Assembly (NCBI RefSeq): GCF_030915485.1
Contig: NZ_CP133266.1
Coordinates: 2,670,001 to 2,734,000, forward strand
Reading direction: 5' to 3'
DNA from: Neobacillus sp. PS3-40
GTDB taxonomy: Bacteria > Bacillota > Bacilli > Bacillales > Cytobacillaceae
DNA: 64,000 nt
Position numbers and translations under genes: made by a program. The notes under the pieces were generated by a model that did no database searches, had not been told where the DNA came from, and saw only the letters and a list, made by a program, of their open reading frames with translations. Shown here piece by piece: positions 2,847 through 49,208 of the stretch. Within the stretch, counting starts at the first letter, position 1. Every line of letters begins with the position of its first letter.

Positions 2847-2899
2847 AACTTTCCTTTTAGAGGTTGCTTTGGTATATAATAAAAGAAAAAATAGTGATT

Positions 2900-2997
2900 G
2901 GCACTGGGGGAGCTAAGAATTGGCTGGCTGAGATTAAGACCCAAAAAGTCTTTTAACCCTTTTACCTGATCTGGTTAGTACCAGCGGAGGGAAGTGT
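2900..2997 (+). promoter_or_regulatory. TPP riboswitch (THI element) controlling thiW
   Basis: The conserved cores are present in order: ACTGGGGGAGC, GGCTGAGA (2925-2932), ACCCTTT followed by ACCTGATCTGGTTAGTACCAGCGGAGGGAAGT, with the closing stem GCACT/AGTGT. The T-rich hairpin downstream (3018-3047) fits termination in the presence of thiamine pyrophosphate. Confidence 0.96.
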
Positions 2998-3017
2998 GTT
3001 GACTTATGTCTACATAT

Positions 3018-27287: not shown

Positions 27288-27527
27288 ATGGTCAAAAATT
27301 ATCACGTTCACATTACCTATGATGCCGGTCCTACTGGATGCGGGGAGCTCATCATGAATTTATTTCTAACAATAAAAAAAATGGAAAAGGGTCAAATTAT
27401 CGAAGTGATATCCTACGACCCGGGTGCAAGGGAGGACTTGCCTGCTTGGTGCAGAATGCAAAATCACACTCTTTTGGCTCGTGAGGATGAAGGGTATATT
27501 AGTCATTACTTTATTGAAAAAGGCTGA
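27288..27527 (+). CDS. TusA-family sulfur carrier-like protein
   Basis: A 79-residue TusA/SirA-fold protein. The carrier cysteine of TusA normally sits in a CPxP motif; here it is Cys18 in TGCGEL, so the two prolines are replaced. A second Cys55 lies in EDLPAWCRMQNH, a block shared almost exactly with the N-terminal domain of the fusion at 28505 (EDLPAWCRMVNH). TusA proteins pass persulfide sulfur, or in some organisms selenium, between partners. Its neighbours are DsrE-like, OsmC-like and MetE-like proteins. ATG 27288 follows AGAGGG. Partner and product are unknown. Confidence 0.75.
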   Translation: MVKNYHVHITYDAGPTGCGELIMNLFLTIKKMEKGQIIEVISYDPGAREDLPAWCRMQNHTLLAREDEGYISHYFIEKG

Positions 27528-27747
27528 ATTAACCCCTGTTCAAACCAAAATAACGTAAAAGAAGTGTTTTCGAGGGAGTGGCCCAATCTTAGGAAGATAG
27601 TGTATGCAACTAGGGAAAGCTTCCGGAGCATTTCCATCTCAGTCGAAAAGACATTGTTCTTTAGTCGAACTGCGCCCTATGAAACGCCCTAACGGGTAAA
27701 CATTCGGCGAGTTTACTATAAAAATAATCTGTGGGAGGTATTATTGA

Positions 27748-28110
27748 ATGGCAGGTAAATTTCTAGTAAGCTTAACAAATGCAAAAAATGATCCGGATAA
27801 AGCAACAGTAGGCTTTGTCGTGGCAAATGCAGCAGTGGCATCAGGCCAGGAAACAGTGATTTTTCTTAATGTGGAAGGTGCTTACCTAGCATCAAAAGGA
27901 TATGCAGAAGAGATACATGAAGATGGCTTCGCTCCTCTAAAACAGTTAATGGATCAATTCGTGGAAGCTGGCGGCACCATTTGGGTATGCAGCCCATGCT
28001 TCAAAAAACGCAATCTTTCGGAAGAAAGTTTAATCGAAGGTGCTACCATTGTTGGCGGAGCTAAACTAGTAGAATTCTTGAGCCAAGGTGCAGCTTCAAT
28101 TACTTATTAA
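27748..28110 (+). CDS. DsrE-family sulfur-relay-like protein
   Basis: A 120-residue protein with the DsrE/DsrF fold: FLVSLTNAKNDPDKATVGFVVA at the start, a long central helix region, and a CxxC at Cys81 and Cys84 in IWVCSPCFKKRN. In DsrE-type proteins a cysteine at this place carries persulfide. GTGGGAGG precedes ATG 27748. It lies 220 bp after the TusA-like gene and 394 bp before the TusA-OsmC fusion, the latter gap enlarged by a MITE. Confidence 0.8.
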   Translation: MAGKFLVSLTNAKNDPDKATVGFVVANAAVASGQETVIFLNVEGAYLASKGYAEEIHEDGFAPLKQLMDQFVEAGGTIWVCSPCFKKRNLSEESLIEGATIVGGAKLVEFLSQGAASITY

Positions 28111-28111
28111 A

Positions 28112-28277
28112 AAGGCTTTTTTCTTAAACTTTGTTGCTAGTTGAAACTAAATTTGAATGGGATTCCAGTTTACCGATGAAAACCGTAGGAAGTTTTTAAG
28201 AAAAGAGCACGATACTATTGTTATTTCGGGTTTTTAGACTAGGTACGAAAAACAACAATCTATGCGAAAACAGCCAT
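28112..28277. mobile_element. MITE, copy B
   Basis: Begins AAGGCTTTTTTCTTAAACTT and ends GAAAACAGCCAT. It matches copies A and C at both ends and in the middle (TAAGAAAAGAGCACGATA, TTTTAGACTAGGTACG) but its internal left arm has diverged, so it is an older insertion. It starts one base after the DsrE stop codon and separates dsrE from the TusA-OsmC gene. The target duplication is not exact (TAAA with one extra base). Confidence 0.72.
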
Positions 28278-28412
28278 TTAAAAAAACTCAAAGGCGCTTA
28301 GCTTTAGGCGACAAACACATGCCGCTACAACTAGAGTGGCTTGTGACCTTATGCTGATGATGCCTTTCCTGCTAGAGTGTTCCTTTCTTATCTATCAAAA
28401 AATGTGAACCCT

Positions 28413-28447
28413 GCTCAGCGACGCCCCCTTTGTTGCTGGGCTCTTTT
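28413..28447 (+). terminator. Hairpin upstream of the TusA-OsmC gene
   Basis: GCTCAGCGAC and GTTGCTGGGC pair over 10 positions including G-U pairs, with a C-rich loop, then TCTTTT. It may end transcription from the DsrE side. The rest of this 394-bp gap is the MITE and unremarkable sequence. Confidence 0.6.
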
Positions 28448-28504
28448 AAAGTCTAATCAGATTTTAGTTCATAATTATAAATTTTTCCGTAAAAAGGTGA
28501 TTTT

Positions 28505-29218
28505 ATGATAGTACCGCAAGCTGTATGTGATGGTGGAGATTTGGATTGTGGCTCAGGGCTACTTTTGATTATTAAAAAAGCAATGGACCCATTGTCAGGC
28601 GGCCAGGTATTGGAGGTCCGCAGTCGTGAGAGAACAGTTGCCGAAGACTTGCCGGCTTGGTGCCGTATGGTCAATCATGAGTTTCTTGGTAGCGAACCAG
28701 GTGAAAACACAACCCGCTTTTTTCTGAGAAAAGGATCTAATCAAGCTGAACTTCAGCGGGATCTGCAGGCAGCCAAAGGATATGAGTGGAGCGTCAGGGG
28801 CCAGGGCGGCAAGGAATTGTCAGCAAAGGTCCATTCGCGAAATCATACCTTCATGGTCGGACAACCTGCTGATTTCAGTCCAAAGGTCAATGCACCAAGT
28901 GCAATTGATTATTTTCTAGGGGCGCTGGCTTCCTGCCTGACTGTAGGATTTAAAGCCCAGGCGTCAAAGAGGAACGTCGAGATCGACCACATGGAGGTTT
29001 CATTGAAAGCTGGACTTGAAAATGTTTTGTATCATATGGAATTAGAGGACGTTGGTAGCCCTCGGTTGCGTGAGATAAAAGGGAATTTCTATGTTTCTTC
29101 GCCTGCTGAAGAAGAAGTTCTTCAAGAATTGTGGGAGAACACGCTTAAGCGCTCACCGATTTACCAGACGTTAGTTCAAGGAACGAAAATAAATATTTCG
29201 TTTTCAATCGTTTTTTAA
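28505..29218 (+). CDS. TusA-OsmC fusion protein
   Basis: A 237-residue two-domain protein. Residues 1-75 are TusA-like with Cys15 in DCGSG, in place of CPxP, and Cys53 in DLPAWCRM. Residues about 95-237 are OsmC/Ohr-like: PSAIDYFLGALASC retains the first peroxidatic cysteine (Cys144), but the usual second cysteine (CPV) is replaced by Ser217 in KRSPIYQTL. A classical peroxidase cycle with two cysteines is therefore unlikely; a single thiol may receive sulfur from the carrier domain. The MetE-like gene begins 17 bases downstream. AAAAAGGTG precedes ATG 28505. Confidence 0.82.
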   Translation: MIVPQAVCDGGDLDCGSGLLLIIKKAMDPLSGGQVLEVRSRERTVAEDLPAWCRMVNHEFLGSEPGENTTRFFLRKGSNQAELQRDLQAAKGYEWSVRGQGGKELSAKVHSRNHTFMVGQPADFSPKVNAPSAIDYFLGALASCLTVGFKAQASKRNVEIDHMEVSLKAGLENVLYHMELEDVGSPRLREIKGNFYVSSPAEEEVLQELWENTLKRSPIYQTLVQGTKINISFSIVF

Positions 29219-29235
29219 ACGGGGAGGGTTCTTTT

Positions 29236-30399
29236 ATGTCATTACCAAAATTCCCAACAACGGTCATTGGCAGCTGGCCAAGGTCGAAGGAAGTTCAACG
29301 GGCAATGCGTAATAAGCGCGCAGGTCGAATTACCGATGAGGAATTCCAAACAATTGCAGATCAATCTATATTGCAGATCTTAAAATGGCAAGAGGAAGCT
29401 AGCATTGATATTGTTTCTGACGGGGAGCAACGCCGTGACAATTATATTTCATTCGTTGCCGAGCACCTGAATAATGTTCGGATGCTTAGCGTATCGGAAT
29501 TGCTTGATTATGTCGAGGATAAGGCAAGCTTTGAGGAGATTCTTGGGACTCTCGATGTTCCGGCATTTTCAATGTCCAATCCAGCAGCTGAAGGAAAAAT
29601 TAGCCGAAAAAAGCCGCTCGTTCTCAATGACTTCTTATTTTTAAAAAAACATACAGACAAAGCCGTCAAGGTTGCTTTGCCTGGGCCATACCTCTTAACA
29701 AGGTCGATGTGGGTGGAGGGTTTATCGAAGGATGCCTACCCGACAAAAGAGGATTTGGCTGTTGATATTGTAAAGGTTTTGCGGGAAGAGCTTGAGGATT
29801 TGATTGCTTCAGGAGCAGAATTCGTACAGTTTGATGAACCTGTGCTGACAGAAATTGTTTTTACAAAGAAAAATGCAAATCGGACATTTATGTGCGGTGC
29901 CTTGACTGCCAAGGCTGATGCAGAGGAAGAAATCGCATTTGCATTGGGGCTGATGAATCAGGTAACTGAGGGAATGCTTGGAAGAGGGACAAGAATTAGC
30001 GTTCATGTTTGCCGAGGAAACTGGAGCACTCAGGATGAAATTTTGCTTCGAGGACCTTATTATCCTTTGATTCCTTATCTTTCGAATGTAAAAGTGGATC
30101 AGATCGCACTTGAATATGCTACGCCAAGGGCAGGAGAAATTGATGCAGTAAGTGAATTGGGCGGCAAGGCACTTGGATTTGGCTGTGTTAATCCTAGAAC
30201 TGAAAGAGTTGAAACAGTTGATGAGATTGTTGCCCGTATCCAAGAAGTAAGAAAATATATTCCTGATGAAAACATCTTTTTAAATCCGGATTGTGGCTTC
30301 GGCACGTTTGCCCAGCGACCTATGAATAGTGACCAGATTGCCATTGAAAAGCTGAAAGCAATGGCGGAGGCAGCACAGAAGCTAAGAGAAATGAACTAA
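29236..30399 (+). CDS. Cobalamin-independent methionine synthase-like protein (MetE C-terminal core)
   Basis: A 387-residue protein corresponding to the catalytic C-terminal barrel of MetE, without the N-terminal half. It begins FPTTVIGSWPR. The zinc ligands appear intact: His257 and Cys259 in VHVCRGNW, Glu293 in ALEYATP and Cys353 in NPDCGFGTF. Core-MetE enzymes move methyl or alkyl groups between a donor and a zinc-bound thiol. Being in one unit with TusA-OsmC suggests a thiol or sulfur substrate other than ordinary homocysteine, but that is inference. No SAM riboswitch or T-box is visible upstream. GGGGAGGG precedes ATG 29236. Confidence 0.82.
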   Translation: MSLPKFPTTVIGSWPRSKEVQRAMRNKRAGRITDEEFQTIADQSILQILKWQEEASIDIVSDGEQRRDNYISFVAEHLNNVRMLSVSELLDYVEDKASFEEILGTLDVPAFSMSNPAAEGKISRKKPLVLNDFLFLKKHTDKAVKVALPGPYLLTRSMWVEGLSKDAYPTKEDLAVDIVKVLREELEDLIASGAEFVQFDEPVLTEIVFTKKNANRTFMCGALTAKADAEEEIAFALGLMNQVTEGMLGRGTRISVHVCRGNWSTQDEILLRGPYYPLIPYLSNVKVDQIALEYATPRAGEIDAVSELGGKALGFGCVNPRTERVETVDEIVARIQEVRKYIPDENIFLNPDCGFGTFAQRPMNSDQIAIEKLKAMAEAAQKLREMN

Positions 30400-46115: not shown

Positions 46116-46211
46116 AAATATTGAAAGGAGTGATTATAGAAAATTCAGAAGAGTAGAAAAATGGTGTTCTTAGATTAGAGATAAACACCTAAGATGGGAA
46201 GGAGAAAAGAG

Positions 46212-49208
46212 ATGGAAGAGATAGAAGTGAGGAATCTTAGCCGGCGGCAATTTTTAAAACTATCCGGAGCTGCAGCCGCAACCTTGGCCATTGCTGAGCT
46301 TGGCTTCAATGAAAAGAAAGCGTATGCACAGACAAAAGGGTTCAAGATTGCAAAGACAACCGTTACACCAACAATCTGCTGCTATTGTGGTGTTGGCTGT
46401 GGCATATTGATCCACACAAAGAATAACTCAGTTGTCTACACCGAAGGGGATCCCGATCACCCAATTAATGAAGGAAAACTTTGTAGCAAAGGAACAGCGA
46501 TTAGGCAATTGTATACATCTGAAAAGAGATTAACCAAACCTTTATACCGTGCACCTGGAAGCAATAAATGGGTTGAAAAGGATTGGAATTGGATGCTTGA
46601 TACGATTGCAAAGCGTGCTAAAGAAACACGGGACAAATCGTTTGTTGAAGTAGAAAACGGGGTTACTGTAAATAAGACGGAGAAAATTGCAAGTCTTGGT
46701 GGTGCCGCGCTTGATAATGAAGAAACGTATTTATTATCAAAATTAATGAGAGGGCTTGGTGTCACTTACTTAGAGCATCAGGCACGAATATGACATAGTT
46801 CTACGGTTGCCGGTCTGGCACCTACATTTGGTCGTGGAGCAATGACTAACCACTGGAATGATCTTCAGCATACTGATTGTGCCTTAATTATGGGTGCAAA
46901 CCCAGCTGAAAACCATCCGATCAGCTTTAGATGGCTGATGAAAGCTAGAGAAAACGGCGGAAAAATTATTTCGGTCGACCCCCGCTTTACAAGAACATCT
47001 TCTCAAGCCGATGTGTATGCACCGCTTCGCTCTGGAACAGATATAGCGTTCCTTGGGGGAATGATAAATTATGCAATCCAAAATAATTTAATTCACAAAG
47101 AGTATGTTGCTAATTATACAAATGCTTCGTTTATTGTGAAGGAAGATTTTAATTTCAATGATGGTTTATTTACAGGCTATGATGCTGCAACACGTATATA
47201 TGATAAAACAAAATGGGCGCTCGAAACAACTCCGGACGGCAAACAGGTCAAGGATGAAACATTAGAACATCCGCGCTCCGTCTTCCAGCTAATGAAAAAA
47301 CACTTTTCCCGTTACGATGTTGATACCGTAACAAGTATGACTGGAACGCCAAAAGAAGATTATCTAAAAGTGTGTGAAGCATTCTGTTCAACAAGTAAGG
47401 TTGGAAAGTCAGGTACAATTATGTATGCGATGGGTACAACCCAGCATACGGTTGGAACACAAAATGTTCGTTCATTTGCCATTTTACAGCTTTTACTAGG
47501 AAACATTGGCTTACCTGGCGGCGGAATCAATGCAATGCGGGGCGAGTCGAATGTACAAGGCTCAACAGATTTCGCTTTATTGTATGATAACCTGCCTGGA
47601 TACCTTGTTTCTCCAAAAGCAACTGTACCTGAGCATGCAACCTTGAAAGGCTATTTGGATAAAGAAACACCAAAAACAGGCTATTGGAGCAACAAGCCGA
47701 AATTTGTCGTTAGCCTGCTTAAAGCATGGTATGGCGAAAACGGAACAAAAGACAATGAGTTTGGCTATCAATTCTTGCCAAAAGGAAATAAAAACTATTC
47801 ACATATTAACCTTTTTAAAGCCATGTATGAGGGACAATTAGACGGAGCATTCCTGTTTGGCACCAATCCAGTTGTCGGTGGTCCAAATGCCGGCAAAGAA
47901 AAAGAAGCCCTCGCAAACCTAAAATGGATGGTGGCAATGGATCTTTGGGAAACAGAAACATCGGCATTTTGGCAAAAAGAAGCAGGTAGTAACCCGACTT
48001 CAATTAATACAGAAGTATTCCTGCTCCCTGCATCATCTTCCTATGAAAAAGAAGGCAGTATTTCAAATAGTGGCCGTTGGATGCAATATCGGTGGAAAGC
48101 AATTGATTCAAGGGGCGAAGCAAGACCTGACCTTGAAGTCATTCATGAGCTTGCAATTCGAATTAAAAAGTTATATGCAGGCAGCACGAAGCCTAAGGAC
48201 AAGCCAATCCAAGCTCTTACTTGGAACTTCGGAACTGGCGATGAAGTGGATATTGACCTAGTAGCAAGAGAAATCAATGGCTATGATCTCAAAACCGGAA
48301 AATTGCTTGCTGGCTTTGGGGCTTTGTTGGAGGATGGTTCAACTACGAGTGGTAACTGGGTTTATTCCGGCTTCTATCCGGCAGAAGGTAAAAACCTTTC
48401 AAAACGCCGTGATAACAAAGACACAGGTAACGCAAACTTCTTGAACTGGTCGTTTGCATGGCCGATGAATCGCCGCATCATTTATAACCGTGCTGCAGCA
48501 GACCCAAGTGGTAAGCCCTGGAGCAAGGAAAAAGCGGTTATTTGGTGGGACGAACTCCAGGGAAAATGGATTGGTAACGATGTTCCTGACTTTAAACCAG
48601 TCATCGCACCATCAGATCCAGGTGGAACAGGCGCCTTTATGATGAACAAAGATGGTGTCGCGTTATTATTTGCACCAACATTAAATGATGGGCCATTCCC
48701 AGAACACTATGAACCGTTTGAAAGCCCGATTGGTAAAAATCTATTTTCGAGTCAGCAACTTAACCCTGCTACAGTCATAATTGAAGGCGATTTCAATAAA
48801 AAAGGCGATAGGAAAAAATTCCCGATTGTTGCGACAAATTACCGTGTAAGTGAACACTGGCAATCCGGTTCAATGACAAGAAACCAAGAATGGCTATCGG
48901 AACTTGCGGGGCATATGTTCATTGAAATGAGTGAAGAATTGGCAAAAGAAAAAGGCATCAAAAATAAAGATATGGTCTTTGTCAGTTCTGCACGCGGAGA
49001 AATTAAAGCGCATGCAATGGTGACAAAACGCTTTAAACCTTTTACCATAAATGGACAAAAGGTACACCAAATCGGGATGCCATGGCATTTTGGATACAAA
49101 GGCATTGCAACAGGGGATTCAGCAAATCGCTTGACACCACATGTTGGGGATGCAAATACAACGATTCCGGAATTTAAGGCATTCCTTTGTAATGTAAGGA
49201 GGGCTTAA
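46212..49208 (+). CDS. fdnG: Selenocysteine-containing formate dehydrogenase-N catalytic subunit (UGA decoded at residue 194)
   Basis: A molybdo-bis-MGD enzyme that oxidises formate to CO2 on the outer face of the membrane. ORF 46212-46790 and its in-frame continuation from 46794 are joined through a UGA at 46791-46793. The join reads EHQARI-U-HSSTVAGLAPTFGRGAM, the exact context of Sec in E. coli FdnG/FdoG. Total length 998 residues, like FdnG. The N-terminus has a Tat signal LSRRQFLK (residues 9-16), then the [4Fe-4S] ligands Cys56, Cys59, Cys63 and Cys91. A SECIS-like hairpin follows the UGA. ATG 46212 is preferred over 46194 because AAGGAG then has correct spacing. A conventional annotator would split it into two genes or call it a pseudogene. 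Confidence 0.95.
46791..46830 (+). promoter_or_regulatory. Bacterial SECIS element with UGA-Sec codon
   Basis: UGA at 46791-46793 is followed 14 nt later by a hairpin TGCC-GGTCT-GGCA (46808-46820). The GGTCT apical loop and its distance are those of the SelB-binding SECIS of E. coli fdhF and fdnG. SelB bound here with Sec-tRNA would insert selenocysteine. Confidence 0.88.

Follow-up and report, generated by a model that had tools for sequence, protein, structure and literature searches.

The four consecutive genes tusA1, dsrE, tusA-osmC and core-metE, carried by a 64,000-nucleotide (nt) stretch of the genome of Neobacillus sp. PS3-40 (contig NZ_CP133266.1, positions 2,670,001 to 2,734,000 of the forward strand; hereafter the window), constitute a conserved operon that is very probably linked to selenium use. 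We tentatively propose that this operon encodes an accessory selenium-handling system for SelD and selenocysteine (Sec), in which core-MetE would demethylate carrier-bound methyl-selenium. The four open reading frames (ORFs) lie on the plus strand where a preliminary description of this DNA, made from its letters alone, had placed them, and every Pfam match exceeds its gathering score. The region is laid out as follows:

27288–27527, plus strand: tusA1, 79 amino acids (aa), PF01206 at 47.8 bits
27528–27747, plus strand: gap of 220 nt between tusA1 and dsrE (orthologous median 29 nt, 77 loci)
27748–28110, plus strand: dsrE, 120 aa, PF02635 at 65.9 bits
28111–28286, plus strand: repeat of ~176 bp between dsrE and tusA-osmC, resembling a miniature inverted-repeat transposable element (MITE), from a whole-genome DNA search
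28505–29218, plus strand: tusA-osmC fusion, 237 aa, TusA at 36.6 bits and OsmC at 56.4 bits
29236–30399, plus strand: core-metE, 387 aa, PF01717 (Meth_synt_2) at 147.9 bits

A search of 84,980 species genomes with the TusA-OsmC protein returned 131 candidates, of which the best 80 loci were kept; these belong to several Bacillota families (including Alicyclobacillus and Sulfobacillus), Acidobacteriota, Planctomycetota and NC10. The loci were selected on TusA-OsmC only, and dsrE, tusA-osmC and core-metE follow each other in the same order on one strand in all 80, with tusA1 ahead of dsrE in 77. Such a recurrence of gene order in 80/80 homologous loci is more than chance would give. Among 299 Bacillales genomes, the TusA-OsmC fusion is found in eight, from three genera, always accompanied by all four genes in order. 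The core-MetE family (650+ bits) occurs in exactly those eight genomes, a paralogue scoring ~490 bits occurs in three genomes and all remaining proteins score ≤136 bits, and these steps in score define core-MetE as a discrete family rather than a stray methionine synthase. The preliminary description had proposed that the four genes form a linked pathway, an idea that would fall if the families hardly ever occurred together or if the MetE-core protein were an ordinary methionine synthase; the linkage is borne out by the shared order and by a TusA-core-MetE fusion in Paracoccus (see below), the families co-occur in all 80 loci and the bit scores set core-MetE apart. Median intergenic gaps in the orthologous loci are short (29, 18.5 and 17.5 nt in gene order), and the long gaps of the window copy are therefore local insertions into the operon. 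The MITE noticed earlier between the two gene pairs is one of these, with 42 further copies in the genome (~165–178 bp, 90–98% identity). No match pointing to a phage origin of the operon was found in phage records.

The link to selenium is drawn from gene neighbourhoods and from co-occurrence. In 27 loci, LysR regulators adjoin the operon or lie within a few genes of it, and all 28 of these proteins match NF040786, the 'selenium metabolism-associated LysR' (E ≤ 1e-74; examples at 290–304 bits against a cut-off of 250); two of the 28 flank the operon of Paenibacillus thalictri. They correspond to the selenium-associated LysR (LysR_Se) of Lin et al., which has been reported only from SelD-containing organisms (PMC5322559). 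In Siminovitchia fortis (L061), selD lies 196 bp past core-metE and is followed by selA, selB and another LysR_Se. The annotated gene order on plasmid pFER4 of Paracoccus ferrooxidans (L145) is transglutaminase, SufS-type cysteine desulfurase (on the opposite strand), tusA, dsrE, two proteins without a family match, a 493-aa annotated methyltransferase, selA and trxB. This 493-aa protein is a TusA domain fused to core-MetE without OsmC, with 52% identity to the second TusA and 43% identity to the core-MetE of the window, and two P. versutus plasmids carry a TusA-core-MetE fusion with 98–99% identity to it. We consider a direct partnership between TusA and MetE likely. Beside the window's own copy of the operon no sel genes or LysR_Se were seen; its genome encodes selA and a selD with an in-frame TGA, and the selenocysteine enzyme mentioned in the preliminary description proved to be a formate dehydrogenase:

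46194–49208, plus strand: Sec formate dehydrogenase alpha subunit, TIGR01553 at 1018.8 bits, one in-frame TGA, ORF open with TGA read as U

Together with selA and selD, this enzyme shows that the organism decodes Sec.

For co-occurrence, the counts by which selenium was weighed against plain sulfur, selD was scored by its curated cut-off, and 41 operon genomes were picked before selD was examined. The gene is present in 39 of the 41 and in all 19 further distant operon genomes (58/60; L090 was left out), against a background of 159/291 operon-free Bacillales (167/299 minus the eight operon genomes, all positive) and 38/61 Acidobacteriota taken at intervals; Fisher tests on species counts, which ignore kinship, gave p values of 9e-8 (the 41 versus Bacillales) and 9e-4 (the 19 versus Acidobacteriota). 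Siminovitchia fordii (L065) lacks selD and carries a core-metE that breaks off after ~95 matching residues (L065:10060-10430), as if the operon decays once selenium use is lost. Selenium had first been raised only as an alternative cargo, and it is now strongly supported by selD co-occurrence, by LysR_Se and by the adjoining selA, selD and selB; the original idea, in which a zinc-thiol methyl transferase would receive sulfur, has become less likely than its selenium version.

Both TusA domains deviate from the canonical family in their first motif. TusA1 carries Cys18 (27339–27341) within DAGPTGCGEL in place of CPxP, and across all aligned orthologues CPxP is replaced by CGE/CGD-L in TusA1 and by CGSG in the fusion, which agrees with the Cys-Gly (Cys18; Cys15) reported in the preliminary description. 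Cys18 is present in every aligned TusA1 orthologue and Cys55, within DLPAWCRM, in all except L070. The block DLPAWCRMxNH, previously thought unusual, aligns with DIPGFCTFMEH of Escherichia coli TusA (an E. coli sequence that agrees with the PDB alignment) and is therefore the canonical second-Cys block; the oddity of the two domains is the loss of CPxP (CGEL, CGSG) and not this block. In the fusion, the TusA part (aa 1–78, motif CDGGDLDCGSG) keeps Cys15 and Cys53 in 43/43 orthologues and Cys8 in 42/43, and its AlphaFold model resembles 3lvj (Z 12.7 over 76 residues). The partner protein DsrE has a C81-S-P-C84 motif that aligns with the CxxC of the YedF DsrE half, both cysteines being invariant in 41 sequences (including three YedF-half proteins).

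The OsmC part of the fusion (aa 88–237) is modelled with the fold of OsmC 1lql (Z 16.3). Cys144 and Ser217 had been correctly identified in the window protein, and a relay through Cys144 had been envisaged; just 31 of 43 orthologues have this residue (Asp, Ala, Ser or Glu in the remaining 12), which does not support such a relay, and the second catalytic Cys is replaced by Ser in 41/43. A role of this domain as a thiol peroxidase or relay was rejected on these losses. With catalytic cysteines that are not conserved, and with a Paracoccus fusion that does without it, the OsmC domain is probably structural. A second, stand-alone OsmC of ~150 aa directly follows core-metE in 29 Bacillaceae loci (for example, L015:11912-12364) and is absent from the window; both cysteines are kept in the two examples that were read, and the best NCBIfam match of one is the OsmC-related (seleno)protein family, below cut-off.

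Core-MetE corresponds to the catalytic half of cobalamin-independent methionine synthase and lacks the folate-binding N-terminal half, scoring 127 bits against the TIGR01371 (MetE) cut-off of 930. The Zn ligands H257, C259, E293 and C353, described earlier as intact in the window protein, are invariant in 40/40 core-MetE sequences, as are the predicted homocysteine-binding residues S13, E64 and D200 (placed by MetE alignment; E. coli S433, E484 and D599); the roles of these Zn and homocysteine-binding residues follow Price et al. (PMC7857596). By sequence, the Zn/homocysteine site is thus intact. An additional Cys220 (29893–29895, motif FMC), invariant in the 40 sequences and in the paralogue but not shared by any other core-MetE in the alignment, sits in a low-confidence loop of the model after D200. 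The predicted structure (predicted local distance difference test score 88) finds its best folds in MesD with selenomethionine and MetE with Zn/homocysteine, matching MesD 3rpd (Z 38.8, root-mean-square deviation (rmsd) 2.3, 324 residues) and Thermotoga maritima MetE 1xdj (Z 36.9, rmsd 2.3, 331 residues). Complete MetH is encoded in 29 of the 41 operon genomes, which speaks against general methionine supply as the purpose of the operon, and full MetE in about 10; a replacement of metH or metE by the operon was tested and rejected, as no replacement pattern emerged. Both MetH and full MetE are missing from one genome, G316 (L049). Betaine was considered as a methyl donor after a BCCT transporter was identified by eye near the operon, and was dropped because the transporter occurs in only four loci (L036, L061, L063 and L065).

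The core-MetE paralogue (47% identity) belongs to a second conserved cluster (L139:9692-13408, L140 and L141:7394-11100) comprising an Rv1679-like acyl-CoA dehydrogenase, an Rv1680-like binding protein with a weak match to a putative selenate-binding protein, the paralogue itself and a stand-alone OsmC. Core-MetE and OsmC are a recurring pair. No paper was found on the link of the cluster to Rv1679-1681.

In the mechanism that we tentatively favour, TusA1 and DsrE would correspond to the selenium-linked YedF divided into two proteins, with selenium carried as a Cys-bound perselenide. The second TusA, fused to OsmC here and to the enzyme in Paracoccus, would present selenium to core-MetE, which would hold homocysteine as a zinc thiolate and exchange an alkyl group, methyl, with selenium attached either to the TusA cysteine or to Cys220 of the enzyme itself (CH3-Se-carrier + homocysteine -> methionine + Se-carrier), and the selenium of methylselenol or methylselenide would thereby be recovered for SelD. 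We infer all three of its elements, namely selenium as the cysteine cargo, methyl as the moved group and the direction of transfer. The TusA-enzyme fusion, together with the adjoining selenium regulator and selA/selD, suggests that the MetE site is where TusA-bound selenium encounters homocysteine. Enzymes of the MetE type pass a methyl group to homocysteine, and this one has no folate half; the simplest reaction would therefore be the demethylation of selenium, which we regard as possible, if somewhat doubtful, as the reaction of core-MetE. It is more doubtful still that the enzyme is, in full, a cobalamin- and folate-independent methyl-selenide demethylase of the MetE fold, taking methyl from TusA-held selenium to homocysteine and yielding methionine and, for use by SelD, selenium that stays on its carrier. 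Demethylation would meet a biological need and has a precedent. Methylation of selenide occurs spontaneously as well as through detoxifying enzymes, and in anaerobes corrinoid methyltransferases regain the selenium (PMC10418091, PMC11097638), in a methyl-selenium demethylation system that shows 87% co-occurrence with the Sec machinery (PMC10418091).

Several observations weigh against this proposal. Methyl transfer from a protein-carried selenide is unproven chemistry for an enzyme of the MetE fold. Since most operon genomes have MetH, they do not depend on the operon for methionine, which says nothing about the direction of the reaction. The selD counts ignore phylogeny, many of the operon genomes being Neobacillus or Robertmurraya; no selD was found in the draft genome of B. 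methanolicus DE0196 (L038), which has an intact operon and LysR_Se, while L063 is selD-positive yet has a broken core-metE. The neighbours of the paralogue cluster (acyl-CoA-dehydrogenase-like and binding-protein-like) have no proven selenium role. All of the evidence for a selenium link, including the TusA-MetE fusion beside selA, also applies to a role in delivering or storing selenium that involves no methyl chemistry, in which the Zn site would bind selenide, perselenide or selenohomocysteine and core-MetE would act as a selenium transferase between the TusA/DsrE carriers and SelD, with methionine no product. We consider this unlikely: S13, E64 and D200 do not vary among 40 sequences that span several phyla, and such constancy implies continued binding and use of an amino acid resembling homocysteine. 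The same proteins working in reverse would place methyl on selenium for volatile export, methylation being a known selenium detoxification (PMC11097638). However, the operon contains no methyl donor enzyme, and its other links are all assimilatory (selA, selD, selB and LysR_Se) rather than to oxyanion reduction or efflux genes. Methionine is also a poor methyl donor, and we judge such a detoxifying role very unlikely.

Two further explanations leave selenium secondary or absent. A folate-independent methionine synthase receiving its methyl from a donor via TusA-OsmC/DsrE, as MesD does with MesX, would account for the intact Zn/homocysteine site, for MesD as the closest fold and for G316 with neither MetH nor full MetE; the prevalence of MetH and MetE in the other operon genomes, the lack of a SAM (S-adenosylmethionine) riboswitch in the window or in the four loci searched, and the selenium regulator and sel genes, which it leaves unexplained, make it distinctly unlikely. 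An ordinary sulfur relay, serving tRNA thiolation or sulfuration of the molybdenum cofactor of formate dehydrogenase with core-MetE as a passenger, is suggested by the homology of TusA and DsrE, by the formate dehydrogenase in the window and by the SufS-type desulfurase adjoining the Paracoccus operon, but is highly improbable given that none of the 80 loci lacks core-MetE, that Paracoccus has it joined to TusA in one protein, that CG-type motifs replace CPxP and that selenium genes adjoin the operon.

The component families are all known, and the operon resembles YedF plus a methyl-selenide demethylase while being a member of neither. YedF (TIGR03527), which goes together with the transporter YedE, likewise combines TusA-like and DsrE-like parts, with the DsrE CxxC at the same position and a strong link to selD (PMC5322559); the operon differs in having separate TusA and DsrE proteins, CG instead of CPxP, and the additional TusA-OsmC and core-MetE. 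YedF-half proteins share 14–18% identity with the operon DsrE, and the best match of the YedF profile in the window's genome has an E value of 1.9e-5, with no one-protein TusA+DsrE at >110 bits. In some operon genomes YedE/YedF-half genes coexist elsewhere; Neobacillus vireti, which bears the operon, has a second selenium locus of the classical kind (L099:5324-7168), where YedE/FdhT (572 bits) precedes a DsrE half of YedF that stands alone. A function of the operon as a YedF replacement was rejected, YedF-half being commoner in operon genomes (23/41) than in selD-positive operon-free ones (5/39). The core methionine synthases MesA-MesD (PMC7857596) share with core-MetE the barrel without a folate half, the Zn HCEC ligands and the three homocysteine residues, whereas core-MetE is a family of its own (28% identity to MesD 3rpd) with the invariant Cys220 and TusA/OsmC partners, and no MesX-like gene was seen in the operon. 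The E. coli TusA-TusBCD relay shares the TusA fold, the second-Cys block and a DsrE-family partner, and differs from the operon, in which CPxP is lost, the context is one of selenium and no TusE/MnmA link was seen. The fusion has the fold of OsmC/Ohr peroxidases but lacks their two catalytic cysteines, and is thus no two-Cys peroxidase.

Closest in proposed function are the Type I mlp clusters and SdmABC corrinoid demethylases of anaerobes, which are also methyltransferase operons tied to the Sec machinery (PMC10418091, PMC11097638). Like this operon, they are proposed to recover selenium from methylated selenium, but here a MetE-fold enzyme and TusA/DsrE carriers would be used, and neither the window operon nor the scanned neighbours include a corrinoid protein or an Mlp methyltransferase. 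The operon lineages are mostly aerobic or facultative, in contrast to those anaerobes, and we know of no established route by which aerobic bacteria recover methylated selenium. In the open-licence literature searched, no description of this set of genes, of its tie to selenium or of the fusion of TusA with core-MetE was found, nor any paper joining OsmC, DsrE and TusA, and two selenium candidate-gene papers (PMC5322559, PMC13188914) make no mention of methionine synthase. Selenide is toxic and scarce, and its in vivo delivery to SelD is a long-standing question, for which, as for methyl-selenium recovery, an operon with a selenium regulator, carriers and an enzyme of known fold offers concrete candidates. 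If the proposed demethylation is correct, the operon would do in mostly aerobic bacteria what the corrinoid system does in anaerobes, and core-MetE would make up a fifth family of core-MetEs, whose methyl donor would be of a new type, namely a chalcogen bound to protein in place of a folate or corrinoid.

Other genes recur around the operon. A secreted transglutaminase-like protein (~368 aa) is encoded upstream of tusA1 in 11 distant loci (including L071, L072, L079 and L082), and a transglutaminase also lies near the operon in Paracoccus (L145:3121-4227). In L056, L068, L069 and L089, the operon lies next to the gene of a membrane protein of ~220 aa that shows weak similarity to the DsbD portion of the selenoprotein TsoB. 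Elsewhere in the window, a thiamine pyrophosphate (TPP) riboswitch was detected at 2896–3009 (69.9 bits).

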